From Mesostigma viride (lineage: Eukaryota; Streptophyta; Mesostigmatophyceae; Mesostigmatales; Mesostigmataceae): a DNA stretch of 64,000 nt. Below the pieces are notes generated by a model, which worked only from the letters and a program-made list of their open reading frames with translations, made no database searches and was not told the DNA's origin. Both the position numbers and the translations under genes were made by a program. Location: contig RPFO01000065.1 in NCBI GenBank assembly GCA_009746045.1, positions 9,627,101 through 9,691,100 of the forward strand. The letters run 5' to 3'. Every line of letters starts with the position of its first letter. Positions within the stretch are counted from its first letter, which is position 1. Positions 27,893 through 59,578 of this stretch are shown piece by piece.

Positions 27893-28027
27893 TGTATTCA
27901 CAACAGTCAACATTACCGTTGACCATTTTTCTGGGCTCATGGCGCGTGGCGCGGAGCGAACGCAGCTGCAACCCAGGACCAGGGAACGCAAGCATCAACT
28001 CCGGCGGATGGGAGTGGCGCAGCCACC

Positions 28028-34189: not shown

Positions 34190-34940
34190 TTAGACAGCTT
34201 GCTGAGATGGGTCCATCAGAGACTGAAGAACCTTGTATTGCACTGCTGCCTTCTGCACTAGCTTGGTCAAAGCATCAGCAGGATTGTCAACCCCAGGGAT
34301 ATGCTCAATATTGGCCAAGGAGGACAATTCCTTAAGAAGGAGATAATCCAAGTCCCTACTTCTGGCCATCTGCCTGTGCACAAACTGCACCATCCCCATG
34401 GAGTCTGTTTTTAGAAGAGTGGTAACCTGAAGTGGCCAAGGAGTGTTAGAAGTCATCTGATGAAGCAACTCCTTCAGATAAAGGCTTGTGTGAATGCCTT
34501 CACAAATAGCCCTGCATTCTGCCACATCACTACTGACAGCCACCCGTTTGTGCAGGCGACTGAACCAGCTCACCAAACTCCCCAGGCCTTCCTGTCTGAG
34601 CACAAAGAGCCCTGCAGCCCTGCCCCTGACCTTGGAGACCTGCCTGCTGTCCATTGAGCTATCCACATACAGCTCCATGCAAATGGGTTGTGATAAATCC
34701 ACTGCAGACAACAGAATGCCAGACGAAGCCCTGACCTGATCAGCCACCTTGGCAGACCCTAGCTCTGTCAGCATGTCATCAGGCAACCTGGCTATGACCA
34801 TAAGGTCTGGCCTGGAAATGCCTGCCACCCAAGCAACCATGCCCCTCACCATGGGACACAGTGCCTGTGTGATGACTGGAGGAAGCTTGCTAATGAGGGT
34901 CTCTTGATAATCGTTGCCCCCCACCAGCAGCATACGCCAC
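34190..34940 (-). CDS. Copia 2 pol, RNase H end
   Basis: Continues pol in a shifted frame: ISRPDLMVIARLPDDML, MELYVDSSMDSRQ (RNase H Asp), AECRAI, LLKTDSMGMV and PGVDNPADALTK, stop at 34190. The frame change falls at a run of seven C (34942-34948) and may be a sequence error or a real break. Confidence 0.85.
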
Positions 34941-37815: not shown

Positions 37816-38919
37816 TCACTGCTCCTTGTTGTCTTCTTGCTGACTGCCCTTTGAAGGCTGGCCTGCCTGGGACTTGTTGTTGTTCTTGTTGTTGTTTTTC
37901 TTGTTGCTGCCCTGGCCCTGGGTCTTCTTGAAGCTGGGACACTCCTTCTTGATGTGCCCCCACCCCTTGCACAGGTAGCACTGGATCTTTGACTTGCCCT
38001 GGCCTCCTCCCCCGTTGTCAGGCGCGTTACCCTGCCTGGGCTTACCACCCACCCTCCTGAACACCGACTTGGCATGTGATTGCCCGTCAGGGTCGGGTGA
38101 ATGGTTGGCCTTCCGCTTGTTGTGGTTGCCCCCACGTCCTCCTTGGCTTCTGTCAGCCTCAGACGTCTTGGAGCCCCCCTGGGCACGCCCACCTGCGTGG
38201 GTAGCCTTCACAGCTGGCATTCCACCCTCAAACAGCTCCTCTGCCTCGAGTGCTTGTTTGATTATGACCTTGTAGGCCTTGAGGGTAGAGTGTGGGGCAC
38301 ACATGACCTTTAAAGAGCCACGTGTTGCCTTGTCCAGCCCAGAAACCTTGAGCCAGTTTGTCAGGGCTATGCTGTCAGCGACATTGAAGCCGTGAGCCCT
38401 GCCCTCCTCAACCATTTTACAATAATTGAGGAAGTTCTGGATAAGGTCTCCCTTAACCTCCCACCCTTGGTATTTATCCTGCCAATGGATCCCCACTTTC
38501 TTCCGTTGATCCTCTAGCAGCTCCTCAGCTCTGCCACGTAGACTGCCCAGGCCTTGTTGGCCTTCTTGCACTCTCTAGTGAGGTCTTTAATCTGATCTGT
38601 GCACTTGCCAAAAGTCTGGCTGCCTATCCAGATCTGATAATAGTTTGTACCCCGTACAAGCTTGGAAACCCCTCTAGTCCTTCCACAAACTCCTCTGCCT
38701 GCTTTGGCTTTGAGTCTGAAGTGACAGGTTGCAGCTGATTAACAATAAGGAGACCCTGTGTGGTGAGATCATATCCAGAACAGCATGTGTATTATTATTA
38801 ATAGGCACATTGGTAATCTCGCCGGTAACCCCCACGTCATCTACGTGAGCGGTCCCGCTACCAGCACCCCCATTATTATTCCCACTGGCTAGGCCCTTGC
38901 TACGGCGTCCCTCAGCCAT
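37816..38919 (-). pseudogene. Copia 2 gag, frame-broken in N half
   Basis: The C-terminal half (38571-37816) is open: helical body, basic His/Lys/Asn-rich stretch, zinc knuckle CYLCKGWGHIKKEC, Lys/Asn tail, TGA followed by C. The N-terminal part starts MAEGRRSKGLASGNNNGG (38919) and then needs about three frame changes (near 38778, 38650 and 38530) to reach the C half (GYDLTTQGLLIVNQLQ; IGSQTFGKCTDQIKDL). Because the LTRs look identical, these breaks are unlikely to have accumulated since insertion. Confidence 0.75.
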
Positions 38920-39041
38920 GGTAAACTACACTAGCTGTGTATGGCCCTGAGCTAAGCAGCTGGAAAACAAAAGACAGGTAGATATGTACAATCTGTCAAA
39001 AAGCCGCCTGCCCCGGTGCCGACCGCGCCACCATGCCGAAT

Positions 39042-39827
39042 TCAGTCGAGACCACGAAAATCGCAGTAGTCGTAGTCGTAAATTGGATCGTTGGCGACAG
39101 GCGCAGGCGCCTCCTGGCCTTGCCCAACCTCAATCGTCACCGGAGTTTCGATGACGATGGGGTCCAACCGACGTCCCGTCACCGGATCAATGCGGCGACG
39201 ACGGCGGCGGGTGACGATGCGGAGCGGGTTGGTAAGAATCGTTAGAAAATCCCACCCGTCCGGCGCCCACTCTCGCAATGCAGACAAGAACGCGACAAGA
39301 TTGAGCAGCAATTGCCGCTCACGCGTCCGGAAGCCTCGCGACAGCAACTGCAGAATCGCAAGGTCTTGAAACAGGTTGGTCGTAATCGTCGGAATGACGC
39401 CCGAACGAACCGACAGCCAGTTAGCGAGATTGCGCTGGTAACCTGTAAGCGATGAAACCGCGTTGTCGATCTCCTCAGAGACCTCGGCAACCGCGCTGGG
39501 CGCTTGCAACCCCGCCCGGGTATGGACCTCGAAGTCCGCGAGCAAAGCTCGAATGGAATCAAGGTAATCGCGAAACCCCGAAACAATCGAAGGTTGCGGA
39601 GGCGGGGGCGGCAGTCGTAGGTTTTGCAGCAGTGCCTGCTGCTGAGCGCGTAGCTCCGCACTGGACGCTACCGCCTGGTCAACAACACGCTGCCACGCCG
39701 GATTAAGAACCGGACGATCTTCACGAACAGGAGTCGTCGAAGGACCAGCCGGAGATTCGGCGATGTCCGCTGGACTGCCCAAAATTTCAGAATCCCTCGG
39801 AATGCGGAACTCCATCGAGTCCGGCAT
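39042..39827 (-). CDS. Unknown ORF between Copia 2 LTR and gag
   Basis: 261 residues, starting MPDSMEFRIPRDSEILGSPA 28 bp inside the 5' LTR boundary and ending YDYDYCDFRGLD. The N-terminal third is Pro/Ser/Glu-rich and contains a poly-Pro run. The middle is predicted helical (DYLDSIRALLADFEVHTRAG, NLFQDLAILQLLSRGF, LLLNLVAFLSALREWAPDGW). A six-Arg cluster follows (IVTRRRRRRIDPVTGRRLDP), then a short strand-rich acidic tail. I recognise no family. It is GC-rich and codon-regular, unlike the adjoining gag. It could be an extra retroelement protein or a captured host or viral gene. It is uninterrupted, which argues that it is or was used. Confidence 0.75.
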   Translation of the reverse strand: MPDSMEFRIPRDSEILGSPADIAESPAGPSTTPVREDRPVLNPAWQRVVDQAVASSAELRAQQQALLQNLRLPPPPPQPSIVSGFRDYLDSIRALLADFEVHTRAGLQAPSAVAEVSEEIDNAVSSLTGYQRNLANWLSVRSGVIPTITTNLFQDLAILQLLSRGFRTRERQLLLNLVAFLSALREWAPDGWDFLTILTNPLRIVTRRRRRRIDPVTGRRLDPIVIETPVTIEVGQGQEAPAPVANDPIYDYDYCDFRGLD

Positions 39828-39854
39828 TTTTCTTGGTACGAAGATTGTAATACG

Positions 39855-40470
39855 AGTTGAATGAGAGTTTACCACCGAGGGAATCCATGGCTCTTGCAGG
39901 AAAGTTGCCTTTATTATAATGAGCAAACACAGACGTAAGTCACGTCAAGTCCGAGACTGCACGTAGCACAGACGACAGGGTCGTTATGCCAAGAGAGCGT
40001 GCACGCAAGAGCTAGCGCCCCAGTGTGACCAAGTCACTCATATAGCTTGCTAGGGACGCGTCCAAGTATTCAGCTGCACTGTCACAGCTGAACTGTCAAT
40101 CAATTGATTACACAGACTCTGGCACGCCTTTGGCGCGCAGATCTATCAATTGTCCATACGGCTAGTCCTGTGGACCTATCCGTACACTAGTCAGCATCAA
40201 CTGTCTCATAGGTCCTGGCGCGCTACAGTGCGCCTACCTATCAATTGACCATCAAGTCCTGTACAAGTCCTGTCAACGTCCTGCGGACTATCAAAGTGAC
40301 ACTTGTACATCCTGTGTCCGTACGCGCCCACAGTGGCGCGCCGGGTACTGTCGGCACAGCCTAGGAAACGTCATAACTTTTACGTTCCTTAACCAAATGA
40401 GGCGTTCAAGGTGCCGTTGGAAAGAGCGTAACAATCTCTATCCATCTAACGTAAATCCTTTACGTTAACT
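39855..40470 (-). repeat. Copia 2 5' LTR
   Basis: Identical by eye to 26424-27039. It reads AGTTAACG...CATTCAACT on the minus strand and is followed outside by the CACCA duplication. Confidence 0.9.
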
Positions 40471-40967: not shown

Positions 40968-41933
<966 letters not shown>

Positions 41934-41999
41934 CTTGGTTTAGGTGGTCTTTTGAACTTGTTGATTGATGAAATAAGTTTACCTGTGCGTGGTGTTGAT

Positions 42000-43664: not shown

Positions 43665-43899
43665 GTGAGCAACATGCTGGAGGCGGTGCTGCCGGGGATG
43701 CTGGACTACGCAGAGAGCGTGGGGGGGAAGTCAATCCGTGCATCGTTAATGCTGACGATGCACGGCAGCTCAGCCAGCGGGGAGAGGAGGATGCTGCTCC
43801 TGCACTGAGATGGCAGGAATTCTGGACACGATGGTGACAGAATTTGGCTACTGGGCCACGCCACGCTCCGAAGTTATTCTGTAGCTGGCAGCAGCCGAG
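43665..43899 (+). pseudogene. YR element gag, middle part
   Basis: Resumes the gag frame after the CACTA as VSNMLEAVLPGMLDYAESVG then IRASLMLTM, running to a stop at about 43808. Coding similarity continues in another frame (EMAGILDTMVTEFGYWATPR) with a TAG near 43881. It is cut at GCAGCCGAG by the Gypsy element and continues at 55408-55626 (AAAE-YLAKLITACQLVDV). Confidence 0.6.
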
Positions 43900-44850
43900 T
43901 GTCACGGACGCGAGCTATGTCATCCGGGCGCCCACTATGCACAAGACCGGTGACGTGCGCAAGGAATTTGTTTTCTGCGCATTTTCGACAAAGGCTAGTG
44001 ACCGGGGGGGGGACACTAGCACTTGCAGCATAAGAGCGGAGAAAAGTGCACGTGCGCGCGCGCCGGGCCAGGCACGGCTGGGCGCGCAGCACTGACGTAC
44101 TTGAGCGGACGGCAGCACAAGTGCGCAGCGTCGAGAGGATCATACGCGAGTTAGTGGACAGCTGGAGCTGGAGCTGGAGCTGGAGCTGGAGCTGGACTGC
44201 TGGACTTCAACAGCGCCGAGGCTATTTACAGGCTATTGACAGGCCAGGTGTCTTTGTGGTGTAGAATAGCGGGTCAACGTTATGAGGACTGGACAGAAAA
44301 TGGAAAAGGACAATTTGCGGTGCGGAGCCAGATCGCTGGAATGAATGCGAAATCGCTGGCAGCCCTACAAAGGGATTTCTTCAAGAAAGGAAAGATTAGA
44401 AGCAATGTTTGCTGGGCCACTCACACGCAAGGTGTGAGCGTGCAGATTGTTTGAAGGATATTATGCTTCGACCTTGGTGGTCGTGACTAAATGCCGGACA
44501 TTCCCAGGGACAGAAATGCCGGAGCCTCTAGGAGATGAGATCGGCAACAGGGTAGCAATTTAGATTTGTCGGGATGCCTTCCTGTTTTTGTTGGCATGTG
44601 TGGTAGTAAGCCAGGACGGCAACTGGAATGCGGTTTCTGTTTGCATGGTTCAGGCAGCAAGATAGTTTTGGCATTCCTGGCTGGACTGACAAGTGTGGCG
44701 TGTGTCATGCGTGTGGCATGACGAATGGTTTGGTTCATAGTCGAAGAGGACTCTCACGTAGCGTGTAGTCTCTTCGAGTCTCTCGTTAGTGGCCTTCGTG
44801 TTTCTCCCTTTCCTTGGGAGCAAGGCCAGTAGCATGTCATGGAGCGCTGC
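43900..44850 (+). repeat. Gypsy 5' LTR (shared part)
   Basis: Matches 54296-55253 over its length. It has fewer copies of the GGAGCT hexamer (about 44161-44196) and carries a 17-bp segment absent from the right copy. Confidence 0.85.
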
Positions 44851-45400
44851 CTAACTGCGGGCTCGTGAGCATGGAGTGCATCGATATTGATTGAGACTAT
44901 CAACGTGTTGTAATTGTATTAACTTTCTCAATAAATTCCGCATGTGCGGCTTCATCATCAGACTGTGCAAAGTGTGTGTTGTGAAAGCAGTATTCTACAG
45001 CAGGGGAGGCAATAAGGTGGTCATCAGGCACGAGGGACAGTTCCTTGTCCTCGGCTGAGAGCCCTCCTTTCTTTACTCGAAGAGACTACCCGGTAGTCTG
45101 CTTCCTTCTGTTTGAAGCCAAGACGTTGGCTTTAGTGTTTATCAACCATCAGCAGTACAGGGAACGGCCTGGCTGACAGTTTGTAAAGGAAGTGTCTTGA
45201 GACAGATTTTAAGAAAATAGAACTAGCCAGAATTTGCTGGCTCTTGTCTTTTTCTGGCAGGCTAGTCGAGTCGTTATCCTTGACGCCTGTTATAAAGCCT
45301 TTGGTTGTTGCTTCTTCTCAGCGAAACCTAGGCTTGTTGGTTCTTGTTTTGCCCATCGGTCAGCTGGTGCATGCCACTGACGCGAGCGCAGACTCGAGCC
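44851..45400 (+). other. Gypsy 5' untranslated leader
   Basis: No coding frame is seen between the LTR and the gag start. A primer-binding site was not identified. Confidence 0.5.
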
Positions 45401-48400
45401 ATGGCGGATGCAAATAGAGCAGATGCCGACACGCCCGCTCCGGGGTCGAATGGCGGGATTCCTCCCGCCGTACCCGCAGTGGGTGAGAGTCGCGACCAAG
45501 AAGCGCCGCTGAGTATGGTGGCGCTGTTCGCGCAGATGCAAGCGCAGATGCAGCAACAGTCGCTACAGTTGCAGCAGCAACTGGCGCTGCAGATGCGGGA
45601 AGTGACCGACAGATTGGTGGCCGTAGAGGGTCGTCATCTGCAGTCCACACCATGGGACGGGCAGGCAACGATGCCGGGCCCAAGTGGTGTTGCCGCGGAG
45701 CCGAGGGAGCGGGACCAGCCGCCAACCCGGCTCAGGTAATGCGGCGGGAAGAGCTCCGATGGAACCGGGGTTTTTGGCTGGGTCGCTAACCCAGCACGAC
45801 TTGCTTGGTGAGGCGGATGGTCAGCCATGCACGGGGCGAGTATACGCTGGCGCCCAGGCGCCTGCCTTTCGATCAAGCGCGAGACGGATTGCACGAGGAG
45901 AACGGGGCAGGGCTGGCGCGCGCGATGGACCCACGCAGGGGTGCACCAGGACGCATGCTGCCAGGCGGGGTCTCAATTCCGTTTGGGCGAGGCGGTGGGG
46001 CGCTGACCGGCGGGTCGACTGCACGGTGGTCAAGTGTGCCAATCGGGCGCATTCCGCCCATGGAGGACATAACCACGCCGCTGGCTTTCCGAGTACGGGA
46101 GGCAGCACGCCCAAGCACGCTGGCGCAGGGACGCGCAGCTCAGCGACCGCCGGAGGATGCCGATGGGGTGCAGTACCCGCAAAGGGTGCGCCTCATACCG
46201 GAAGGCGCGAAGATGCCCACCCTACCACGGGTGGACATGCGCGAGAAGTTCTCCACAACCGGCAATCTGGCCACGCTGGCGCAGGCCTACAACGCGTACA
46301 AGTCATGGATTGATCTGCAATACATGACTACGCAAGGCGCTGTAATGCATGAGTTTGTGATGAACAACATGCATTTCTTCTTTCACGGCCTTACGCTGAG
46401 GCGAGTGGCTAGGCTGGTGGAGCAGTGGAGAGAGGTCTCGCTGTACACGCGTCACACGGACGTGTGGTTCGGCTTCGACGGGCGTGGCCAGCCCGACTAT
46501 GACAACATCATGTATGGTGTCGACCCTGCCGAGGAACTGTGGGGCCTCCTTCGCCAGGAATACCCGGTGGAGACCATCAAGGCAGAGCGTGAGTGGCGCA
46601 GTTTCAAGATAGCCGAGGGTGAAACCCCGGAGCAATCTTACGAGCGCCTCATGGAGTTCGCCGGCGAAGTGGAGGACTGGTCCGAAAAGCTGGCGTGTCA
46701 GAAATGGCTGCAAGCGCTAGGCTCCAAGGAGATGGAGCTGCCCACGCCGCCCAACGGCCAGCCGTGGCGATTGCGGTCACTGTGCATTGAGGTCAGGGCC
46801 ATGATGCGACGACACGCGCAAGGCCGGATCTCGGTAAGCACGGTGGTGGCCGAGCTGCAGGCCAAGGTCGACGCGCTGACCAAGGCCAAGTCGGGTGAGT
46901 CGTCTGCCACAAGACAAGCGCGCCCGCAAGGCGGCCACGGTGCTAGCAGGAACCAAGGGGGGTCTCGCAACGCCTCATCGCATGATGCAACCCAGGGTAA
47001 CGCCGCTGGCAGCAACAAGGACGCTGCCGCTCCGCCGACGCGAGCTGGGGGGGGCACGTCCTCACAGACGGGTAGGACGGATGCGCGCAAATCGGGCTGC
47101 TTCCTGTGCGGTCAGGATGGGCACATCAAACGTGATTGTCCCAAGGCGTGTAAGAAGTCACACCCGGCAACGGTCCGCACCCATCTGGCGGGGCAGTGCC
47201 CAGCGCCGGGGGTGCACTTTGCGGACGTGGAGGACAAGAAGGTGGACGCGGGGGTGGTCATCATTCAGCCGACGGGCGAGGCGGGGGGACGTGAAAGGGA
47301 GGATGGGGGATCGCAGGTTCAATACAGGGACGAGGACTTCTGGCGGCCAGCCGACGTGATGGCGTTGGACATCCACGCAGTTGGCGCGCGAGGGAAGCAA
47401 GCACGTGCACCGCCGTCGTTTCAGGTGGGGCAGCCAAGTGAGACTGTGGGGCAGCTGCCTCAGTCCTTTCGCATGGCTCCCGCTCGGACCGGCTCCACCC
47501 TGGAACACGACAATCCTGCTGGGGCAGAGCAGCGGCGCAGGTTGTTGCCATTATACCCTATGCCGTCGGTCGTGGACACGCCTGCATACACTCCCCGGCA
47601 AGTGGTCGAGTGGTTCGGTCAGCGGGCCGTGGAGGTGCTCGGGTCGCATGCGTCAGAGGTACAGCGGTACGCTGACACAATGGACGCCCGTAGGTTGCAC
47701 AACGCTGAGACAGCCACATTTGTCGGGCATCGCCCTGCATCGGCTTCGGTAATCGTGGGTCATGTCGCTCATGGTGTCTTGGACAACGCGCAGCGGGCGT
47801 GCGTAGTGCCTAGGGCACCCACTGTCACCTCATATCCGGATGGCGAGCCAGCAATGGCGTTTCAGGCGCAGGGGCACGGGGAGCCCCTGAGCAACGTGGT
47901 CTACAGTACTGACCATGAATTGGTCGTGAAACTGGACAGCGGGGCCCAGCCACTCGTTATCAGTGCTCGGCTGGCCCAGTTGCTCAACCTAACCAGGGAG
48001 AATGGCGGGCTGCGGGACAGTCATGTGTCCGTGGCGGGCTGGCAGGGCCCTGCCGCTAAACCCTTTGCCATGACTGCGGTCCAGGTAATGGTCATCCTCA
48101 ACCCGCTCAGGCCATCCGACATGGCCTGCATCCCTGTGAATGCCCTTGTGACCGAGCAGTCATCGTATGACGTGCTGGTCGGCATGGAGGTCATGTTTCC
48201 CATGCGGCTCGAGGTACGCATGTGGGAAGGCCGCGCGGTGTACATCGTTGACAGAGACGGTGACGCCATGCGCCAAGCAAGCATCCCGGTGAGCTGCTAC
48301 AGCTCGGACACTGGGGCAGTGCGTGTCTCGACGGTCAACCGGGTCGAGGCTGGCTCGCGCGACGCGGTGGTGGAGGTACGGATGGGGGAGGTCACGGCAG

Positions 48401-48660
48401 CTGGGGGGGCTGTGCGTGATAAGCATCGGCCGTGCATCCCAACAGCGCTGGTGGGACGGGCCTCATTGCACAGCACGTGGGCGGCGCGACAGCAGCCGCA
48501 AGCGCGGCAGGCCCTTTTGCGTCAGCACGTCACCAACGCGGTGCGGCAGCAACAACTCTCTCATCTCCCGCGGCAATCGCAGTCACAAGTGGCTGTCGCG
48601 ACAACCGAAGGTAACTTCTGTGCCGATGTTGTGGCAGAGTCGCGGGTCTTGTCCGAAGGG
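45401..48660 (+). CDS. Gypsy gag and protease
   Basis: Starts MADANRADADTPAPGSNGG. A Gln-rich coiled-coil-like stretch (ALFAQMQAQMQQQSLQLQQQ) is followed by a frame change between about 45740 and 45810 (possibly an intron: CTCAG|GTAATG). The main frame then has a gag core (about 46230-46880; e.g. EWRSFKIAEGETPEQSYERL), the zinc knuckle CFLCGQDGHIKRDC (about 47098-47140), and a retropepsin domain: VVKLDSGAQPLVISARLA (Asp near 47935) ... YDVLVGMEVMFPMRLE. After about 130 further residues the chain runs directly into the methyltransferase. Confidence 0.85.
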
Positions 48661-49640
48661 GTTGTATTGCTAGAATTGTTTGCTGGGATGGGAGGGGGGC
48701 TGGCTGGCTTTCTCGCTGCAGGCGGTACGTGCCACACGTTGATCGCCGTAGAGCCGTCTCCTACCGCTCGGGCAGTGTATAGGCATCACTGTGCCCAGCT
48801 GTCTGCCCTGTATCCATCTCAGTTCCCTCCGTCTGCGTGGACAGATCCGTTTGGGGAGTGCCCTCAGGATATCCGTGCTATTGGGGAGGTTCATGTGCGA
48901 GGCCTTTTGAGGCGGCACAAGAGGATAGACCTCGTCCTCGCGGGCTGGGAATGTCAAGGGTTGAGTCAGGCCGGCGTAGGACGCGGGCTTGCGGATCCTA
49001 GGAGCGGGTTGTTTTGGGATCTGCTTCGAGTCGTTGGACTCTTGCAGCAGCTGCAGGACCAGCCACTAGCGTATCTTTTTGAGAACGTGGTGGCCGACGA
49101 CAGCCCTCACGAGGTAGTGAGGAAGGACTGGGCCCAGATCGTGGACATCTTAGGGGCCCAGTCACGTGCGACAATGCAGGATTGGGCGGGCTCACCCACA
49201 GGTACCGCGCATTCTGGACCAACCTTGCACTCACCACCACCATCCAGGCAGTGGTAGATGCGATCACACGACAGCACGACGGCATGCCCGCGGAGGTGGC
49301 GCTGCCACCACATTTGGTCACGCAGCGTGTAGATGTCGCCGATCGGCACCCTTACGCACCCGTCAATCACGTAGGTAAGCCTATGTGCGCTCTTCCCACC
49401 TTGGTTAGTTACCAGGGGTCATCGGCCTACAGGGACCGGGGCAAGGGTTTGGTATGGGACACCGGTACGGGTTTGTTGGTGCAGCCGCCCGCTGAGTTTC
49501 GTGAGGTGAGCATGGGGTTCCATGTGGGGCGTCCGCCGCTGAGGGGGTTTTAGAGGCCACTAGGTGGTCTCTTGTTGGGCAAGCCATGTCAGCCTTCCAG
49601 GTTGGGTATGTTCTGCGGGCCGCAATGCAAGTGCGCCAGG
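48661..49640 (+). CDS. C5 cytosine DNA methyltransferase domain (DNMT3-like)
   Basis: Fused in frame after the Gypsy protease. Motif I: LLELFAGMGGGLAGFLAAGG (S-adenosylmethionine site, from 48667). A motif II-type acidic residue is in IAVEPS. Motif IV: GWECQGLSQAG with the catalytic Cys at 48952-48954, but Glu replaces the near-invariant Pro of PC. LADPRSGLFWDLLRVV, then motif VI LFENVV (49075-49092). A frame change near 49155-49180 leads to motif VIII (LTHRYRAFWTNL), similar to the AHRARYFWGNL region of DNMT3. Motifs IX/X follow (LVSYQGSSAY; EFREVSMGF), and after another frame change near 49545, LLLGQAMSAFQVGYVL. It would methylate cytosine in DNA. Activity is doubtful because of the ECQ motif and frame breaks. 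Confidence 0.85.
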
Positions 49641-50383
49641 GTGGGGGAGATATCCCCACACCGCCACCGCCTGTCAGTGCCCACGCGGCTGGTGTCCGGC
49701 CAACAGCGTCCGGCGGCACTGGGTCGCCATGGAGATCGCGGCTGCTTCAACTATGGAGCGTTATCCTCATGACGTCCTTGTTGTCCAGCACGGTGTTCGC
49801 TGGAGCGCCCACCCTGCAGCAATCGGTCGGTCGCGCAGTCCGTGCCATTCAGCAGGTGAGCGTCACACCCGGTGTAGCCGCATTTTCCCTTTTCCACGAT
49901 GCCGCTGTCAGGGGGCCTTGTCTCGACAGTAGGAGTGCCGCAGTCGCAGATCCTGCTGCCTCTCACATATGGGCCATAGGTGAGCACCTCACCGCCGCGC
50001 AACGCAAGGCTATGGAGCACTGGTTGCATTCTGCACGCTCAGTTTTCGCTTTCAGCAGTGAAGAACTAGGGTGCTACAACGGGGGCTGCATGGGGGTCCC
50101 ACTAGATACGGATCAGCCCTTATTCAGGCGGCAGCATAGGCCGAGCTTGGCTGAGCTGGAATTCGTAGATGCTAACTGTCGAGAGCTAGAGGCAGCTGGG
50201 ATCATCCGCGCTTCATCCTCCAGTTATGCAGCTGCCACGGTGGTTGCACCCAAGAAGGATACCATCACAGGCGAGTGGACAGGTATGCGCATGGCCACTT
50301 ACCTGCGTCAGCTGAACGCGCACACTCCTGTTGATAGGTACCCCATGCCTCGGGTCGATGATGTTTTGGATAAAATATCTCAG
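49641..50383 (+). CDS. Gypsy linker and start of RT
   Basis: A Pro-rich linker and about 120 unassigned residues are followed by the pre-RT region (FAFSSEELGCYNG, LFRRQHRPSLAELEFVDANC) and the first RT block: AAGIIRASSSSYAAATVVAP, KKDT, ..., YLRQLNAHTPVDRYPMPRVD then DVLDKISQ. The frame stops at the palindromic insert; the next codon of the RT is at 51276. Confidence 0.85.
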
Positions 50384-51275
50384 TTAGGTTAAATAGTGCC
50401 GGAACCTTTTTGCCGTTGGGGCAAATCGGTCCGGAACACTATTTTGCCCGGATTCACCACTTCCGAGCACCCAAGTTAATTCGGCCGAATTAACTTGGGT
50501 GCTCGGAAGTGGTGAATCCGGGCAAAATAGTGTTCCGGACCGATTTGCCCCAACGGCAAAAAGGTTCCGGCACTATTTAACCTAACTAAAACCTGGCCCC
50601 GTGGAGGGGGAGTCGAATAGACCTGGAGACAACCGCCTGGGCTAGTGCACGCAAATGATATTGCACCGGAACTGTCTCTGGCAGGTTTCGAACCCCTGAC
50701 CTCCAAGGTGCACAGGTCTTAGTTAGGTAAAATAGTGCCGGAACCTTTTTGCCGTTGGGGCAAATCGGTCCGGAACACTATTTTGCCCGGAATCACCACT
50801 TCCGAGCACCCAAGTTCATTCGGCCGAATGAACTTGGGTGCTCGGAAGCGGTGATTCCGGGCAAAATAGTGTTCTGGACCGATTTGCCCCAACGGCAAAA
50901 AGGTTCCGGCACTATTTAACCTAACTAAGACCTGTGCACCTTGGAGGTCAGGGGTTCGAAACCTGCCAGAGACAGTTCCGGCGCAATATCATTTGCGTGC
51001 ACTAGCCCAGGCGGTTGTCTCCAGGTCTATTCGACTCCCCCTCCACGGGGCCAGGTTTTAGTTAGGTTAAATAGTGCCGGAACCTTTTTGCCGTTGGGGC
51101 AAATCGGTCCGGAACACTATTTTGCCCGGATTCACCACTTCCGAGCACCCAAGTTAATTCGGCCGAATTAACTTGGGTGCTCGGAAGTGGTGAATCCGGG
51201 CAAAATAGTGTTCCGGACCGATTTGCCCCAACGGCAAAAAGGTTCCGGCACTATTTAACCTAACTATCTCCCCAG
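50384..51275. repeat. Palindrome of palindromes inserted in the RT
   Basis: The 892-bp insert has the layout P1 - S - P2 - S' - P3. Each P is a near-perfect palindrome of about 205 bp without a loop (outer end GTTAGGTTAAATAGTGCCGG; centre AATTCGGCCGAATT in P1 and P3, TTCATTCGGCCGAATGAA in P2). S (50588-50720) and S' (50929-51060) are inverse copies of a 130-bp spacer, so the whole insert folds on the centre of P2. S' contains GGTTCGAAACC, like a tRNA B box. The flanks share TATCTC. Removing 50384-51275 joins CAG to GTC and restores DKISQ-VKYVSSLDLRSG. Confidence 0.95.
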
Positions 51276-54125
51276 GTCAAGTATGTGTCGTCGCTAGATT
51301 TGCGTAGCGGCTTCCATCAGATCAAGGTCGTAGAGGCAGATCAGCGCAAGCTGGCCTTTTGGGGTGGGACCCGTCTGTACGAGTGGGTTCGCATGCCATT
51401 CGGACATCGCAACGCTAGTGCGGTGTTCCAACGTGCCATGGACCAGGTACTGGCAGGGTTGCCATTTGCAGCCTGCTACATAGACGATGTCATTGTCTTT
51501 AGCGAGACGTTTGACCAGCACTTAGCTCACCTCGATCAGGTTCGGATCGCCCTAGATAAGGCCAACCTGCGGCTGCACCCTGAAAAGTGCAAGTTCGCCC
51601 AACAGACCATAGGGTTTCTTGGCCATCAGATTGTACCAGGTGGCCGGACCCCTGAGGCAGCCAAAGTGGAAGCCATCAGCAACGCCGCAGTGCCCATCGA
51701 CATCTCGGGGGTGCGCGCGTATCTCGGGCTAGCTGGCTATTATCGAGGATATATTCAGAATTTCAGCACCAAAGTCAAACCCCTGACTGAGTTGTTGAAG
51801 AAGGGCAATGTCTGGGCGTGGGGTCCGGCTCAGCAGCGAGCCATCGATACCATCAAACAGGAACTGACAGCCGCTCCTATCCTACGCGCCCCCGACTATG
51901 CTCTGCCCTTCATACTTTACACCGATTGGTCCAAGGTAGGCCTAGGGGCTGTGCTAGCACAAAAGGACGATGCGGGGCGCGAGCATGTTATCGCGTACGC
52001 TAGTCGGAGTAACAACTCTGCCGAGAGTCGGTACTCTTCCTACGAGGGGGAAGCGTTAGCCGTTGTGTGGGCCATCAAGCACTTCAGGCCATATCTCTTT
52101 GGGCGGGTGTTCACACTTGTCACAGATCACCAGCCCTTATTGTGGTTGATGACCAGCGACAAACTCACGGGTAAGCTGGCCCGGTGGGCAATGATCATTC
52201 AGGAGTACCACCTGACAATCGTCCATCGGCCAGGTCTGGATCACTCCAACGCGGACGTCCTATCCAGGTATGCTCTACCAACCACTGTTGACAACACCGG
52301 TGCGCGGGCCCTAGGGGCCGAGAGCTCGCCTGGGTCTGTGGTTTTTGTTAATGCTGCAGGCTTCGCTGACGCCGACGCCGAGGCAGACTGGCGCGCAGTC
52401 GAGTATACAGTCGCAGACTTTGCGGCAAGCTGCAATGCAGTTCACCCTTCTCCCTTCACCCCTGCCGCTGGCCTCCTCGCGTTGGAGGAAGGTAATTCTC
52501 CGTCCTTTGACATTGACAATACCTTGGCACGATACCTAGCACTCCAGGTGGTGTTGATTGGCCATCTCACAGTGGAATGCAACATGGGTGATGTGTGGCT
52601 CGATGGGCGTGTGTTGGAGCAGGTCCAAGGGATAGCTCTCACCCCAACCCCTGTTGATTGGTCCTCAGCCCAGCGTGACGCTGAGTTGAATAGGGTGCAA
52701 CATAGGGCGGTCACCTACTCGTGGGATGCCGGGGTCCTCCACAAAATGATCGGCAAGCGCAAAGTGGTGGTGCCGCCGCCTCACAAGCGGGTCGCCATCG
52801 TCCAGCAAGTCCATGAGCGGTATGGCCACCTGGGTGGTAACCGCACTTTGGCGCTAGTGCGCGCCTCTTATTGGTGGAACGGCATGCGTGCCACAGTCGC
52901 GCAGGTCGTCGCTCGCTGCGCGCAGTGTGCCCGGGTGAAGGCCCGGTTCAATGTGGACCACGATGCGAAAGAATTGATGAGCCTACCCATCAGAGGGCTC
53001 TTCTACCGCTGGCACGTAGACCTGTGTGGGCCCTTTGATGAAAGTGCAGATGGCCACAAGTATGTCATGGTGTGTGTCGAAAGTTTTAGCAAGTGGGTCG
53101 AGCTCATCCCCATTGCTGACAAGCAGGCCGCCACCACCGCCAAGCACTTCGCCGACATCATCGCCAGGTTTGGCGCCCCCGCGGAGGTGGTCACCGACCA
53201 GGGCGGGGAGTTTCGGGGGGAGTTTCAGGAATTGTTGGATGCATGTCTCATTGATCACCGTCGCACTTCTCGGGAGATTCCTCAGGCCAATGGTTTGGCT
53301 GAGAGATTGGTGCAGACTGTCAAGCAGGCTTTGCGCAAGTGGAGCCTGCAGTCAGCATCATTCACTATGTGGGATCGTGAACTGGCGTGGATAGCCATGG
53401 GTTACCGAATGTCACCCCAGGAGTCGCTCGCCTGTTTCTCCCCGTATTTCCTGTTGTTTGGGCGCGCACCCTTGCTCCCCACGGAGGCGCAGAGTGCACA
53501 CCCCACCCCTATGGCGTTTGACAACGCCAGTCAGTTTCTGGCTGAGGTGACCGCACGGGCGGCTACTTTCCGCAAGGTTATGCCCATCGCCATGAACAAC
53601 TTGTTCATCGCCCAGCACCGAGATACCCTGCGCTACGCTCAGCGCCGGGGGGGCGCTTACATGGCCCGTCAGCTGCATTTTCGTCCGGGGCAGTTCGTAT
53701 TTCTCCGCACGCAGCTGACCGACACTCTTGACGTGACTGCGGGGCCGACCATCTTGCGGATCGTCGCCCTCAAGCCATCTGGGGTCGCCATTTTGGAGGG
53801 CGTCGACGGCAGTCGCACCACCGATAACGTAAGCAACCTCAGTCCGTGTTCGTTGCCCAACTTATTGCCTGACCTCGCCCCGCACACGGCCAGGCGGGTC
53901 AAGGACGCACAGTGTCAGGTTTGCCATCGCGTAGACCAGGGGGATACCATGTTGCTGTGTGATCACTGTAATTGTGGGTGGCACATGCACTGCTTGCAGC
54001 CAGCGCTCGCCACCGTGCCAGCGGGCCAGTGGTTTTGCCCAGTTTGTGTCGCTGCCCGTTTCGCAACCAGTAGCGTCACCATTTCCTCAGCTGCTGTGGT
54101 GTTGGCACGGTCGCTGGCCATGTGA
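51276..54125 (+). CDS. Gypsy RT, RNase H, integrase and PHD finger
   Basis: RT: VSSLDLRSGFHQIKV, MPFGHRNASAVFQRAMD and YIDDVIVF (catalytic DD near 51482). RNase H: ILYTDWSKVGLGAVLA, YEGEALAVVWAIKHFRPY and VTDHQPLLWL. Integrase zinc module: HERYGHLGG...CAQCARVK; core WHVDLCGPF, VVTDQGGEF and GLAERLVQTVK (complete DDE). At the C-terminus, where many Gypsy elements carry a chromodomain, there is a PHD finger (53910-54054): CQVCHRVD, MLLCDHCNCGWHMHC and WFCPVC, the full C4-H-C3 ligand set. A PHD would bind histone H3 tails and could guide integration. The stop is at 54123-54125. Confidence 0.92.
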   Translation, partial: VKYVSSLDLRSGFHQIKVVEADQRKLAFWGGTRLYEWVRMPFGHRNASAVFQRAMDQVLAGLPFAACYIDDVIVFSETFDQHLAHLDQVRIALDKANLRLHPEKCKFAQQTIGFLGHQIVPGGRTPEAAKVEAISNAAVPIDISGVRAYLGLAGYYRGYIQNFSTKVKPLTELLKKGNVWAWGPAQQRAIDTIKQELTAAPILRAPDYALPFILYTDWSKVGLGAVLAQKDDAGREHVIAYASRSNNSAESRYSSYEGEALAVVWAIKHFRPYLFGRVFTLVTDHQPLLWLMTSDKLTGKLARWAMIIQEYHLTIVHRPGLDHSNADVLSRYALPTTVDNTGARALGAESSPGSVVFVNAAGFADADAEADWRAVEYTVADFAASCNAVHPSPFTPAAGLLALEEGNSPSFDIDNTLARYLALQVVLIGHLTVECNMGDVWLDGRVLEQVQGIALTPTPVDWSSAQRDAELNRVQHRAVTYSWDAGVLHKMIGKRKVVVPPPHKRVAIVQQVHERYGHLGGNRTLALVRASYWWNGMRATVAQVVARCAQCARVKARFNVDHDAKELMSLPIRGLFYRWHVDLCGPFDESADGHKYVMVCVESFSKWVELIPIADKQAATTAKHFADIIARFGAPAEVVTDQGGEFRGEFQELLDACLIDHRRTSREIPQANGLAERLVQTVKQALRKWSLQSASFTMWDRELAWIAMGYRMSPQESLACFSPYFLLFGRAPLLPTEAQSAHPTPMAFDNASQFLAEVTARAATFRKVMPIAMNNLFIAQHRDTLRYAQRRGGAYMARQLHFRPGQFVFLRTQLTDTLDVTAGPTILRIVALKPSGVAILEGVDGSRTTDNVSNLSPCSLPNLLPDLAPHTARRVKDAQCQVCHRVDQGDTMLLCDHCNCGWHMHCLQPALATVPAGQWFCPVCVAARFATSSVTISSAAVVLARSLAM

Positions 54126-54152
54126 GGAGCCATGAGAGCCAGCGAGGGGGGG

Positions 54153-54290
54153 AATCATGGGACAGCTCCTCGCCCAACCCACCGGGCATGCAGTTAAGGC
54201 AGGCACGTCAGCTCAGCTCATTTGGGTTTTACCAAAGCTGAGCATGGCCAGCCGCCATGGTGGCGCCGGAGATTGTGGTACGCAGACGCG
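54153..54290 (+). repeat. 138-bp module left of the right LTR
   Basis: Starts AATCATGGGACAGCTCCTCG directly after a purine-rich tract (GCGAGGGGGGG) and ends ACGCAGACGCG. It is repeated at 55267-55404. Confidence 0.9.
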
Positions 54291-54295
54291 ACAGC

Positions 54296-55253
54296 TGTCA
54301 CGGACGCGAGCTATGTCATCCGGGCGCCCACTATGCACAAGACCGGTGACGTGCGCAAGGAATTTGTTTTCTGTGCATTTTCGACAAAGGCTAGTGACCG
54401 GGGGGGGGACACTAGCACTTGCAGCATAAGAGCGGACGAAAGTGCACGTGCGCGCGCGCCGGGCCAGGCACTGACGTACTTGAGCGGACGGCAGCACAAG
54501 TGCGCAGCGTCGAGAGGATCATACGCGAGTTAGTGGACAGCTGGAGCTGGAGCTGGAGCTGGAGCTGGAGCTGGAGCTGGAGCTGGAGCTGGAGCTGGAC
54601 TGCTGGACTTCAACAGCGCCGAGGCTATTTACAGGCTATTGACAGGCCAGGTGTCTTTGTGGTGTAGAATAGCGGGTCAACGTTATGAGGACTGGACAGA
54701 AAATGGAAAAGGACAATTTGCGGTGCGGAGCCAGATCGCTGGAATGAATGCGAAATCGCTGGCAGCCCTACAAAGGGATTTCTTCTAGAAAGGAAAGATT
54801 AGAAGCAATGTTTGCTGGGCCACTCACACGCAAGGTGTGAGCGTGCAGATTGTTTGAAGGATATTATGCTTCGACCTTGGTGGTCGTGACTAAATGCCGG
54901 AAATTCCCAGGGACAGAAATGCCGGAGCCTCTAGGAGATGAGATCGGCAACAGGGTAGCAATTTAGATTTGTCGGGATGCCTTCCTGTTTTTGTTGGCAT
55001 GTGTGGTAGTAAGCCAGGACGGCAACTGGAATGCGGTTTCTGTTTGCATGGTTCAGGCAGCAAGATAGTTTTGGCATTCCTGGCTGGACTGACAAGTGTG
55101 GCGTGTGTCATGCGTGTGGCATGACGAATGGTTTGGTTCATAGTCGAAGAGGACTCTCACGTAGCGTGTAGTCTCTTCGAGTCTCTCGTTAGTGGCCTTC
55201 GTGTTTCTCCCTTTCCTTGGGAGCAAGGCCAGTAGCATGTCATGGAGCGCTGC
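54296..55253 (+). repeat. Gypsy 3' LTR (shared part)
   Basis: Matches 43900-44850. It has a longer GGAGCT array (about 54541-54599) and small indels. It ends at GCGCTGC like the left copy. Confidence 0.85.
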
Positions 55254-55266
55254 ATGTCATGGAGCA

Positions 55267-55404
55267 AATCATGGGACAGCTCCTCGCCCAACCCACCGGG
55301 CATGCAGTTAAGGCAGGCACGTCAGCTCAGCTCATTTGGGTTTTACCAAAGCTGAGCATGGCCAGCCGCCATGGTGGCGCCGGAGATTGTGGTACGCAGA
55401 CGCG
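55267..55404 (+). repeat. 138-bp module at the right end of the Gypsy element
   Basis: Second copy of 54153-54290. With the following GCA it forms the right edge of the element, next to the CGAG duplication. If counted as LTR, the right LTR would read TG...CA. Confidence 0.9.
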
Positions 55405-55407
55405 GCA

Positions 55408-55626
55408 CGAGTACCTGGCAAAGCTGATCACGGCATGCCAGCTGGTGGATGTGGGGTCGACGGGTTGGAAGGGGACTCCGTCGGCAATGCTGCCATTCCA
55501 GGAGGGTGGAGCAATGCTGGCGTCTCCGGCGGTGCGGGCGGCGATGAGCATGGGGAAGCTGCAGCACAAGCTGGAGCAGGGTCCCGGCAAGAAGGGGCAG
55601 GGCGGCCCGTCCAACAACAACAAGTG
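55408..55626 (+). CDS. YR element gag, C-terminal part
   Basis: Resumes after the Gypsy element as EYLAKLITACQLVDVGSTGW and ends with a basic tail (KLEQGPGKKGQGG...NNNK, stop TGA). The tail may bind nucleic acid in place of a zinc knuckle. It is followed by the RT polyprotein of the same element. Confidence 0.65.
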
Positions 55627-55729: not shown

Positions 55730-58700
55730 CTTTTAATGCTCGCACACTAGCCTGTCAGACGGTTAGGGCGTTAAACTGGATGGGGGGGGGGGGCGAGACC
55801 CGCCTGCTGTAGATTCTGCCCGTGTGCCCGGGCCTCTGCAGCAGGCGGCCCTAGATGGGAATGATGATGCTTGCAGGTCCTTTGTCCGCCGGAACGGTGG
55901 TTCCGTAGCGGCAACGGCAGGATCTGTAGTGGATGGGGGTGAATATGCTGAAGGAGCCCCTTACGAACCGTTAGTGGCCGCACGCTTGGCCTTGCCTGGT
56001 CCGGGGGAAGGTGGCCAAGTGGATGTGCTGAACTTACTACCCCCCTCTTGGGGAGCAATTTTAAATGATGAGAGTAGGATGGTACGGACGCTGAGCCCAG
56101 CAGAGCGGATCTTGCAGAAGTCGATGCGGATCTCGCGGGGGTGTAGCATGGAGGAGTTCGCGCGGGTTTGCACGGTGTGTGTGGAGAGGGGGATTTTGGG
56201 TGGATTTTTTGAGGAGGAGCCGCCTATGGTGAACGGTACTTTTGGGGTCGGAAAGCCCGACGGCCGTATACGGCTGATTGTGGACAACCGGCGTGGCAAC
56301 ATGCCACTACCAGATCCTATGCCCGCTTTTTTACCACACCTTGGCGTGATTTGCGATTTGCCCACGCGCGCTGGGGAGGATGTTTTTGGGGGCGTATCAG
56401 ATTTGGATTCGTACTACAACAGACTCCGCCTGCCAGTTTGGATGCGGCGGTACTGTGCGTGGATGCCGGTGTGGTCGGATCTGGTGGGCCTGAGTGGGGC
56501 TCGTCGGAAGGTGTGGCCGTGGATGTTGTGCTGGCCAATGGGCAACAAGCTGGCCGTCGCCGTGGCCCAGTGTGTGCATCAGTCTGTGTTGTACCGCTGT
56601 GGCCCCAAGCCGCCGTTGGAGGCTAGTCGTGGGCTGAGCATCAACATGTCCGCGCTGATCCTGGTGGCGGAGGCCAACGAGGCGGGGGAGACCGTCCGGC
56701 TGAGGCTGGAGGAGGACCCTGCTGCGCCCTTGGCGCCCTCGCCGTGCTTCGAATCTCGGCAGGATCTGGAAGGTATGCATGCTGTGACGATCGATGACCT
56801 CCATTTCACCCACTGTGCGTCGGTGGATGGGGTGAATCAGCAGCTAGATCGTGTTCAGGCTGCCTACGCCGCTGTTGGGCTGGTGCAGAAGTCTGACAAG
56901 GTGGTACGGGCGACAGCAGAGCAGACTGGTGTGCAGGCGGTGGGTGTCATTCACCAAAGAGATGGTGACGTGGTGCCTGTTCCTGAGCGTGTGGTGGCAG
57001 TTATCGCTGCTACTCATAGAATCTTAGATCGCGGGTTTACATACTACCGCGAACTTAGTTCTGTGCTTGGAAAGTGGGTGTGGATGCATCTGCTGTGCCG
57101 CCCCATGCTTTCGGTGTGGTCTGAGACGTACCGGCTGCTAGCAGCCATGAATGCCTCCCTGCCTGGGCGCCGCTGGCGCCTCCCTGCGGGGGCCCGCCAG
57201 GAGCTTCAGGCGGCGATCGACCTGGCCCCCTTTTTGAGGGCGGCCAGGGCCCGGCCCCTTTCTGACCGGGTCGTCGCAAGTGATGCGAGCGGCTCCGGCG
57301 GTGGGGTGGTCTACAGGGACCTGCCTGGGGCCGATTGTGCCCGGCTGGCGACCCGGCGCGAAGCGCGGGGGTGGCAGACGACAGCTTTAACGTCTGGGGA
57401 GGACTGGGACCTGGAGCGCATGGAGGAGGGGGACTACAGCCTGCTGGATAGTGGCCACTGGCGTACGGCACTGTCCTACCGGTGGCGGGGGCAGCCTAAC
57501 CACATCAACGTCAAGGAGGCGATTGCTGCGACACAGGGGGTCGAGTGGTCGTGCCGGACCAAGGCGTGTCGAGGTAAGCGAGTCGTCCGGCTCGTAGACT
57601 CCAGTGCTGTGGTGGGGGCGTTTGTCAGAGGGCGGTCGTCTTCCTACCGCCTCAACCAGCTGGTTCGGCGCTACTGCGCTCTGTCACTGGCTGGCGACAC
57701 GCAGAGCCACTGGGTCTGGGTGGCTACCGACCACAACCCAGCTGACAAGGCCAGTCGGCGTGGCGCTTGGATTCCTGACTTGACCCGGTGTGGTGACGTG
57801 CATCCCAACCCTGGGCCTGAGGGGGCGCGACGCCCTCGGGACTTGGCACTTTTGGAGGGCACAGTCAACCCTGTGTCTACCTTGCCAGCGTACCGGCGTG
57901 CGGCGGCTGTCTACGTGGCGTGGGCGCCACCTGGCCCTGTCGACCCAGCTGACGCGGAAGCCATTTTCTGTGAGTGGATTTCTGCTGTCTACCATGCCAG
58001 AGGCGGGCGGGGGCGTACCTTATGCCAGCATGCCAAGGCCTGTCTGCACCTGTACTACCCCGACATTGTTCGGAATTGGGTACTGGCGGACCGCCTGCTA
58101 GCAGGTTGGCAGCGGCTTGTTCCGGCTGTCAGCCCTCCGCCTATGCCCTGGCGCCTTTGCTATTTCACTGCCCTGTTGCTAGTTTCACGTCGACAGGTGC
58201 ATTTGAGTGCGTTGATTATTATTGCTTTCCAGCAGTATTTACGCATTAGCGAGGCGCTAGGGCTGCGGGTTCGGGATGTGGCTCATCCCGGCCACCCCCT
58301 TCTCGAGCCAGGGCCCATGGTCGGTGCCCTTGTGCTGCGCAACCCCAAAACTGCGCAGGGGGCGGCCCAGCACGTCCTCGTCCGGGATCCACTTTCTTTG
58401 TGGCTCCTGCGACGTCTGACGGCTGGCCAGCCCCCGGATGCACTCCTCTTTCGGGGCTTAACGTACAGCCAGGCTAGGCAGCAGTGGGAGGCTGTGCAGG
58501 CCCGCATGGGCATCCCGGGATGTTTTCTTTTCACAGCCTCCGGCATGGGGGGGCGACGCACGACGCCATCGCTGGCGAGTCGCCGGAGGCCATCCAGCTG
58601 CGCGGCCGGTGGGCTTCGGCCCTCTCGGTCACGCGCTACATTGGCCTCCACCGCAGCCTCCTGGGGCGCGACATCCCACCCGCCCTCTGGGCTCAGGCCC

Positions 58701-58784
58701 TGGGTTTTGACCCAGCGGCTTTCCGGCGCCACTTCGGTGGCGTCGAGTTTTGACGTCCTCCTGTTTTTATCTCTCATCTTTTAG
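55730..58784 (+). CDS. YR element RT - RNase H - tyrosine recombinase polyprotein
   Basis: The likely start is upstream of a run of 12 G at 55782-55793 (MSRAFNARTLACQTVRALNW), where the frame changes. RT: IRLIVDNRRGN, SDLDSYYNRLRLP and AVTIDDLHFTH (catalytic DD, with Ile in place of the usual variable residue). RNase H: VVASDASGSGGGVVY, INVKEAIAATQGVEW, RLVDSSAVVGAF and ATDHNPADKASR. Next comes a 2A-like CGDVHPNPGP (57789-57818). Then the tyrosine recombinase: QYLRISEALGLRVRDV holds the first catalytic Arg. The frame changes near 58515-58531, and HSLRHGGATHD, GRWAS and VTRYI give His-x2-Arg, Trp/His and the nucleophile Tyr in the shifted frame, which ends at 58753. Confidence 0.88.
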
Positions 58785-58948: not shown

Positions 58949-59146
58949 GGGTAGAGCAGGGGCACAGCTGCTGTGGGCTGGCCCTGCACATTCACATAGT
59001 GTGCTCACCCTAGCATACAGATGGCCGTGTTGCCATCTGGTAGACATGTCTGTGTTTTTCCACCGTATAGAGCTAGCACACATATTGTAATAAATTTGAT
59101 GTTTTGTGGTGATGCATGCAAAGCAAGGCAAGGCCAGAAATGGATT
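58949..59146 (+). repeat. YR element repeat B1
   Basis: Starts GGGTAGAGCAGGGGCACAGC and ends CCAGAAATGGATT. It is a 198-bp match to B2 (59381-59578). Confidence 0.9.
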
Positions 59147-59355
59147 TGGTGAGCTATGCTCATTTTATCTATGACTAACCTGCTGAGCGGAGAATGCAAC
59201 GCCGTATAGCACCAAAAGAAAAAATAATTTTAGAAAAAAAAATATTTTTTGTGCTGGCACCCGTACCCCAGCCACCCAGGTAGGGGTTGGCTGGAGAGGT
59301 GGTTGCTATAAAAGGTGGGCTTCCATTCTAGGGAAGCAGGTTGTTTCTTTTGCCT
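59147..59355 (+). repeat. YR element repeat A2
   Basis: Matches A1. It abuts B1 directly, forming the B1-A2 junction expected from a circular intermediate. Confidence 0.9.
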
Positions 59356-59380
59356 CCCACCCACCCACCCTGGCAAAAGG

Positions 59381-59578
59381 GGGTAGAGCAGGGGCACAGC
59401 TGCTGTGGGCTGGCCCTGCACATTCACATAGTGTGCTCACCCTAGCATACAGATGGCCGTGTTGCCATCTGGTAGACATGTCTGTGTTTTTCCACCGTAT
59501 AGAGCTAGCACACATATTGTAATAAATTTGATGTTTTGTGGTGATGCATGCAAAGCAAGGCAAGGCCAGAAATGGATT
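59381..59578 (+). repeat. YR element repeat B2
   Basis: Matches B1 and forms the right edge of the element. The old Gypsy sequence resumes at GCCTATTACAGATTCC. Confidence 0.9.

Follow-up and report, generated by a model that had tools for sequence, protein, structure and literature searches.

Can one retrotransposon carry both an enzyme that writes a DNA methylation mark and a module that may read chromatin, and is such an element an accident of one locus or the member of a family? The question is raised by positions 43900-55407 of the window, i.e. the whole 64,000-nucleotide stretch of contig RPFO01000065.1 analysed here, where a preliminary description made from the letters alone had recognised a Gypsy retrotransposon with its own C5 methyltransferase (MT) and a PHD finger. 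Comparison with other copies revealed that the element belongs to a young, multi-copy family, with many open-frame copies in the Mesostigma genome.

A methyltransferase and a PHD finger in one Gypsy element

The whole element covers positions 43900-55407 and has the tetranucleotide CGAG directly outside both ends (43896-43899 and 55408-55411). All features of the element are on the plus strand of the window, except for two palindromic ones, to which no strand is assigned. The domains of the window copy follow each other in the order gag, zinc knuckle, protease, MT, reverse transcriptase (RT), RNase H, integrase (INT) and PHD finger. A Pfam scan detected, in that order, a zinc knuckle, PF00145, RVT_1, RNase H, integrase H2C2, rve and PHD, confirming the arrangement originally read, with the MT between protease and RT; the protease match is weak (47914-48192, motif DSGAQPLV, PF13650, E 0.0044, below the Pfam cut-off). 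The order protease-RT-RNase H-INT, with the rve domain downstream of RNase H, is that of a Ty3/Gypsy-type pol.

A stop-to-stop frame at 45790-49257 contains gag, the 5' part of which lies in other frames, the CCHC zinc knuckle (47095-47145, PF00098, E 1.1e-5), the protease and the first part of the MT. The end of the MT, a linker and the N-terminal part of RT are found in the frame at 49505-50392, while the frame at 51264-54125 contains the rest of RT, RNase H (51894-52208, PF17917, E 1.7e-38), the zinc-binding domain and rve core of INT (52773-53270, PF17921 and PF00665) and the PHD finger (53913-54047, PF00628, E 1e-8). The latter is a complete C4HC3 finger, and its eight ligands are all invariant across 8 aligned elements. 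It is located downstream of INT, where chromoviruses have a chromodomain; no chromodomain was detected in the Pfam scan of the window copy.

The MT (48655-49636) is distributed over three frames. The PF00145 match (E 1.9e-10) is confined to its N-terminal part (48670-49089) and later motifs are found in two further frames, but all three pieces, joined end to end, can be aligned with complete relatives and retain the catalytic Cys, EN(V) and RxR; catalytic residues are retained in 31 of the 32 MTs aligned. Among solved C5 MTs, DNMT3 is the closest both by sequence profile, with a match to DNMT3A, and by fold; on these grounds the enzyme is classified as a DNMT3-type, catalytic-looking MT. Profile searches thus support both domains named in the preliminary description. 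The claim that the MT is encoded by the element also holds, but the window copy is defunct in its present form: its frame changes in gag and in the MT, and RT is interrupted by an 882-bp near-perfect palindromic insert (50385-51266), which is foreign to the family. The palindrome consists of two arms, each 442 nt long (99%), and contains nested palindromes; it is either a foldback/MITE-like (miniature inverted-repeat) element or an assembly fold. Since an alignment of the two copies of repeat A, described below, shows 5 mismatches in 975 columns, all other differences being gaps, the insertion is young, and its frame changes may represent decay or assembly errors.

Copies in the host genome

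The 440-Mb assembly of 2243 contigs to which the window belongs was searched. By using the intact MT of a complete relative (L081, see below), at least 119 MT matches were obtained, all without internal stops, from 119 scored out of 514 candidates; 39 of them, counted by eye, lie in a frame of 2074 amino acids (aa). The RT-INT-PHD protein of the window detected at least 48 loci (48 scored out of 5197 candidates), namely the window itself, three loci with 99% identity and 44 with 81%; 16 of the 48, again counted by eye, are within the 2074-aa open frame. MT sequence is present in 19 of the 20 RT-INT-PHD loci examined, the twentieth being the window copy, whose MT lies outside that stretch. In the copy L194 the 2074-aa frame encodes zinc knuckle, protease, MT, RT, RNase H, integrase and PHD; it shares 184 nt with the gag frame, in the -1 frame, which suggests -1 frameshifting between the two.

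The broken state of the window copy, across three frames, might suggest that a fragment of a host MT gene was inserted once into a single Gypsy copy, and the preliminary description had named a lack of other MT-bearing copies as what would refute its reading. Such copies exist: the multiplicity of the MT (at least 119 matches, 19 of 20 loci), its occurrence among relatives and its constraint, both reported below, refute a one-off insertion practically beyond doubt. The host had been taken for a chlorophyte. An annotated Mesostigma protein, P0001 (jgi/Mesvir1), and one copy in the window's genome share 99.2% identity over 725 aa, and the host is therefore Mesostigma viride or a very near species, i.e. 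a streptophyte.

Selection and CpG footprint

Selection was evaluated by comparing the window copy to L194. Raw proportions of nonsynonymous and synonymous differences (pN/pS) are reported, because silent sites are saturated for the MT and the linker. The values are 0.172/0.756 for the MT (321 codons), 0.089/0.727 for RT-RNase H (331 codons), 0.110/0.667 for INT (384 codons), 0.132/0.603 for the PHD finger (57 codons), 0.232/0.767 for the RNase H-INT linker (152 codons) and 0.482/0.594 for the protease-MT spacer (77 codons). The MT and the PHD finger are under constraint, the MT less than RT and far more than the protease-MT spacer; the pairing of the two domains, as first noticed at this locus, is thus that of two constrained parts of one Gypsy element.

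CpG sites were counted within the coding core, with non-homologous flanks excluded. In the 81% subfamily (16 copies), C/T or G/A polymorphism affects 6 of 369 CpG sites versus 1 of 1271 other C/G sites (p 0.0007), a pattern from which resident copies are likely to be CpG-methylated. The occurrence of 5-methylcytosine in Mesostigma is reported in passages of PMC6947507.

Rotated repeats and integration

The repeats of the window copy follow the order A1, coding region, polypurine tract (PPT), B1, A2, B2. A1 starts with TGTCACGG and spans 43900-45078, a length taken from other copies, since A measures 951 + 228 bp in complete ones. It is followed, after the coding region, by the PPT (54144-54154), B1 (54155-54293), A2 (54296-55253, without the final 228 bp in this copy) and B2 (55269-55407, with GCGGCA at its end). 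Rather than two co-terminal direct long terminal repeats (LTRs), an A-coding-B-A-B layout is thus found in the window and in three of six other copies (C998, C113 and C1502), which are complete, with an A of about 1.15-1.25 kb and an A1/A2 identity of 99.4-99.9%. The other three are truncated or rearranged within the stretch examined: C2111 has B-A-B at its right, A1 not being in the stretch, C2 contains A1 and B1 and not A2, and C1757 is rearranged. Because of this layout, the Gypsy label is used for pol and not for the repeats. Two other delimitations were discarded, an LTR at 43899-45000 with a TACA end, ruled out by comparison with other copies, and a plain LTR pair, ruled out by the A-coding-B-A-B repeats in the window and elsewhere. 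When all 20 RT-INT-PHD loci are considered, window included, B1 is present in 20, A follows in 19 and a second B in 15, several of the stretches stopping right at the second-B position; an exact PPT+B 20-mer and the exact B|A motif are each found in 19.

Identical 4-bp target-site duplications (TSDs), such as the CGAG of the window copy, were detected outside A-start and B-end in 9 of 12 two-ended copies and in none of 132 mismatched pairs. Sixteen copies were entered in this test, 4 of which are without an end motif; C473, C592 and C1249, whose right end is past the contig, were left out. As the duplications are exact at A-start and B-end, the insertions are attributed to the integrase and not to a tyrosine recombinase. 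The outer ends are of the TG...CA type (TGTCAC...GCGACA) and are internal to the LTR, B+A, that the PPT would define.

B1 meets A2 at the palindromic GACA-GC-TGTC. The surrounding 15-mer, CGACAGCTGTCACGG (54289-54303), a candidate integrase site, is identical in the window and in L081, although the two MTs are just 42% identical, and 0 of 100 shuffles gave a value above 13. The same 15-mer is found in 11 viral contigs, as expected by chance at that collection size. The A2-B2 joint is the exact union of A-end and B-start, i.e. a U5-to-U3 joint, in 4 copies, and directly upstream of C111 lies the PHD-PPT-B of a further copy, joined via GC to the A of C111 (L244, L254), in a tandem arrangement. 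These features suggest that a 2-LTR-like circle or a concatemer, opened at B|A, would account for the rotated layout, the TSDs and the joints. A circle-junction integration route was once proposed for retroviruses. Alternatively, A-coding-B-A-B copies could derive from linear complementary DNA (cDNA) by unusual plus-strand priming or trimming, with neither circles nor concatemers. Clean TG...CA ends and exact 4-bp TSDs do resemble those of ordinary linear integration, but a PPT directly before B1 implies B+A as the standard LTR, and the U5-to-U3 joints and the tandem upstream of C111 also speak against a linear precursor, which is considered a possible, though rather unlikely, source.

The segment 44759-44779 is 90% complementary, over 21 nt, to 45075-45095, at the junction of the A1 end and the leader, and the two may represent a self-priming 5' segment and the primer-binding site. 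Two further copies share this 21-nt complementarity, and L081 has one of 19 nt at a similar place. Self-priming as in Tf1 is possible.

Relatives and the two positions of the methyltransferase

A protein search with the INT-PHD half yielded 201 matches, of which the best 120 were used, and a protease-MT search yielded 2, for a total set of 122 proteins. According to a profile built in the analysis, 54 of them carry an MT. Members of the set come from Mesostigma (P0001, P0134, P0139), Volvox reticuliferus (P0061: MT, INT and PHD), V. africanus (P0060: INT-PHD), Chlamydomonas eustigma (P0110), Chromochloris zofingiensis (P0078), Klebsormidium nitens (P0003: INT-PHD only), Dunaliella salina (P0135: an MT, in a fragment without INT) and the liverwort Calypogeia fissa (P0132: protease-MT). 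One INT-PHD element protein, P0038, is named from a Spirochaetia metagenome-assembled genome and probably belongs to a mis-binned eukaryotic contig. The combination, initially presented as that of one element, is therefore shared; moreover, passages of de Mendoza et al. 2018 (PMC5890265) describe a DNMT3-bearing Gypsy element, KnitGypsy-Dnmt3 of Klebsormidium nitens.

The 9285-bp contig L081, whose ends overlap by 127 bp, contains a complete relative, encoding gag, knuckle, protease and MT, then an in-frame UAG, and RT, RNase H, INT and PHD in the same frame. The stop, within L081:3483-3503, reads UAG CAA UCA and separates gag-protease-MT from RT-INT-PHD; since UAG-CAR-YYA is a leaky stop, readthrough is likely. 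L081 was binned with an uncultured Synechococcales cyanobacterium, despite its eukaryotic-type Gypsy element, and is likely mis-binned. A search of viral contigs with the RT-INT-PHD alignment gave 110 pattern matches and no relatives.

An INT-PHD tree was built on 117 rows, i.e. the window and 116 of the 122 proteins, 6 being left out for too short an INT. One branch (SH-aLRT 98) splits 33 rows from 84. The smaller side, where the K. nitens fragment P0003 is also placed, includes the 3 rows with the MT before RT (window, P0006 and P0075), each of the 26 rows in which nothing separates RNase H from INT, and 4 left unassigned; the 26 rows are silent on any MT upstream of their start, and P0008 starts in an MT end. 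The larger side includes all 49 rows with the MT directly upstream of INT, and 35 left unassigned. These sequences place the element in a wider MT and PHD-bearing Gypsy lineage, in which the MT precedes RT on the window side (type A) or lies between RNase H and INT on the other (type B).

In the MT tree, whose outgroups were 32 prokaryotic, viral and metagenomic MTs plus a partial human DNMT3A as the sole DNMT3, the 57 retroelement MTs form one clade (SH-aLRT 100) on a branch of 1.18. A recent origin of the MT from prokaryotes or viruses was rejected, such outgroups falling outside this clade, in a set containing no host DNMT3s. The partial row P0091, of type B, is placed among the A rows, but trees constrained to keep either B or A as one clade were not rejected (p-AU 0.86 and 0.89), in tests performed without five long or partial rows. 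MT and INT-PHD divergence are correlated (30 elements, r 0.78, 0 of 5000 permutations). One MT capture and one relocation provide the simplest reading. Because the outgroups contain no plant or algal host DNMT3, and A and B may each be one clade, two captures of closely related host DNMT3 genes keep some probability; it is a low one, given that all retroelement MTs share one clade on a long branch and that the C-terminal PHD and INT are common to both groups.

A possible self-marking cycle

A mechanism combining these elements can be proposed. The MT, carried in the polyprotein, would methylate the double-stranded cDNA of its own element at CpGs; new copies would then arrive pre-marked and quiet, and the host would be spared. 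The PHD finger, beside the INT C-terminus, would tether the complex to chromatin whose H3 tail is unmodified (H3K4me0), thus placing copies in weakly transcribed regions. The cDNA would be circularised or concatenated with its LTR ends joined, and the integrase would open the palindromic B|A site, yielding rotated A-coding-B-A-B copies with 4-bp target duplications. Taken together, self-marking, PHD placement and rotated-cDNA integration are given an even chance of being correct. Histone reading, in particular, is plausible by resemblance of the finger to known ones.

Several observations weigh against this scheme. The RNase H-INT linker is constrained too (0.30), and the synonymous divergence of the MT is saturated. 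In the window-like subfamily (three copies), 7 of 338 CpG versus 8 of 1108 other sites are polymorphic, which is not significant (p 0.058); the element is not CpG-poor, with an observed/expected ratio of 0.85 (0.77 for the window as a whole), and the CpG footprint could equally be attributed to host enzymes. Three of the 12 two-ended copies (C111, C488 and C998) have no TSD. The integrase-PHD structure model is poor (pLDDT 66), and the top Foldseek matches to it (PHF1, TM 0.18) mean little, only short BAZ2A/B-type PHD matches being useful. Finally, the KnitGypsy-Dnmt3 MT produced no methylation in yeast, a result that its authors did not regard as conclusive, since human DNMT3B failed as well, according to passages of PMC5890265.

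The yeast result would also suit an MT retained for a different function, for instance RNA methylation or the binding of nucleic acids in assembly, with little or no DNA methylation; this is improbable, the catalytic residues being intact in nearly all MTs and the enzyme resembling DNMT3 and not DNMT2. Somewhat less improbable, but still unlikely, is an MT acting in trans on host DNA, competing elements or incoming viral DNA, with a benefit in competition or host tolerance. A nuclear integrase-PHD complex could reach chromatin, and a defence role of retroelement methylases is speculated upon in passages of PMC6338049, but the data are compatible with action in cis as well as in trans, and the MT sits in the polyprotein that surrounds the cDNA. 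A still broader picture, of a pan-green-lineage Gypsy family derived from one ancient DNMT3 capture, with writer and reader in one polyprotein and a DDE integrase opening circular or concatenated cDNA at an internal palindrome, is advanced tentatively, with less confidence than the self-marking cycle itself.

Neighbouring sequences

Just downstream of the element, a 1005-aa frame (55767-58784) resembles, by eye, a DIRS-type RT with a tyrosine recombinase, with no Pfam match; it is followed by a 198-bp repeat (58949-59578) with copies 432 bp apart. Upstream, a long trinucleotide-type repeat array with poly-Ser and poly-Ile frames lies at 41376-41980, and further long frames, of up to 989 aa, at 34190-39944 (minus strand) and 27923-32892 (plus strand).

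Comparison with known systems

A search of the open-access literature for PHD fingers in Gypsy elements, or for split repeats with a Gypsy integrase, found no paper on the combination among those listed. DNMT3 within streptophyte and dinoflagellate retrotransposons is mentioned in passages of PMC12344493. The closest system is KnitGypsy-Dnmt3, which, in the passages of PMC5890265, likewise combines a Gypsy pol with a DNMT3-type MT, is present in many intronless copies under purifying selection and, according to a legend, has repeats arranged as in DIRS elements, similar to the rotated repeats reported here. Compared by description, it is likely homologous to this family. Neither 'PHD' (term count 0) nor 'chlorophyte' appears in the main text. 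In the view of its authors the MT was acquired within the lineage of K. nitens, whereas the clade of MTs found here extends over Mesostigma, chlorophytes and a liverwort.

SymbioDIRS-Dnmt3 and SymbioLINE-Dnmt of Symbiodinium are also retroelements encoding cytosine MTs, and SymbioDIRS has A-coding-B-A-B repeats as here, and two domain orders; they rely on a tyrosine recombinase or on LINE (long interspersed element) machinery, in contrast to the rve integrase of this family (passages of PMC5890265). Split repeats, as in DIRS/PAT elements, are found here together with an rve integrase and 4-bp TSDs, whereas DIRS elements have a tyrosine recombinase and no TSD-making integrase.

Chromoviruses, the chromodomain-bearing Ty3/Gypsy elements, similarly have a chromatin-reader module downstream of the integrase; this family differs by a PHD finger in place of the chromodomain, an MT within pol and rotated repeats. 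Tf1 and sushi are self-priming LTR retrotransposons, to which the family may be likened as far as complementarity goes, since an upstream segment of A may pair with a site just after A1.

The MT-bearing retrotransposons known so far were those of dinoflagellates and one charophyte, read as recurrent lineage-specific captures. New in this analysis are a PHD finger as fixed partner, the breadth spanned by the MT clade, the two alternative positions of the MT and the integrase-type insertion of rotated copies. The MT is here a standing component of widespread green-lineage elements. The many near-identical copies in one genome make self-marking by a retroelement directly testable, and the association of rotated repeats with integrase-type TSDs bears on a long-closed question, that of joined-end DNA as a substrate of DDE integrases.

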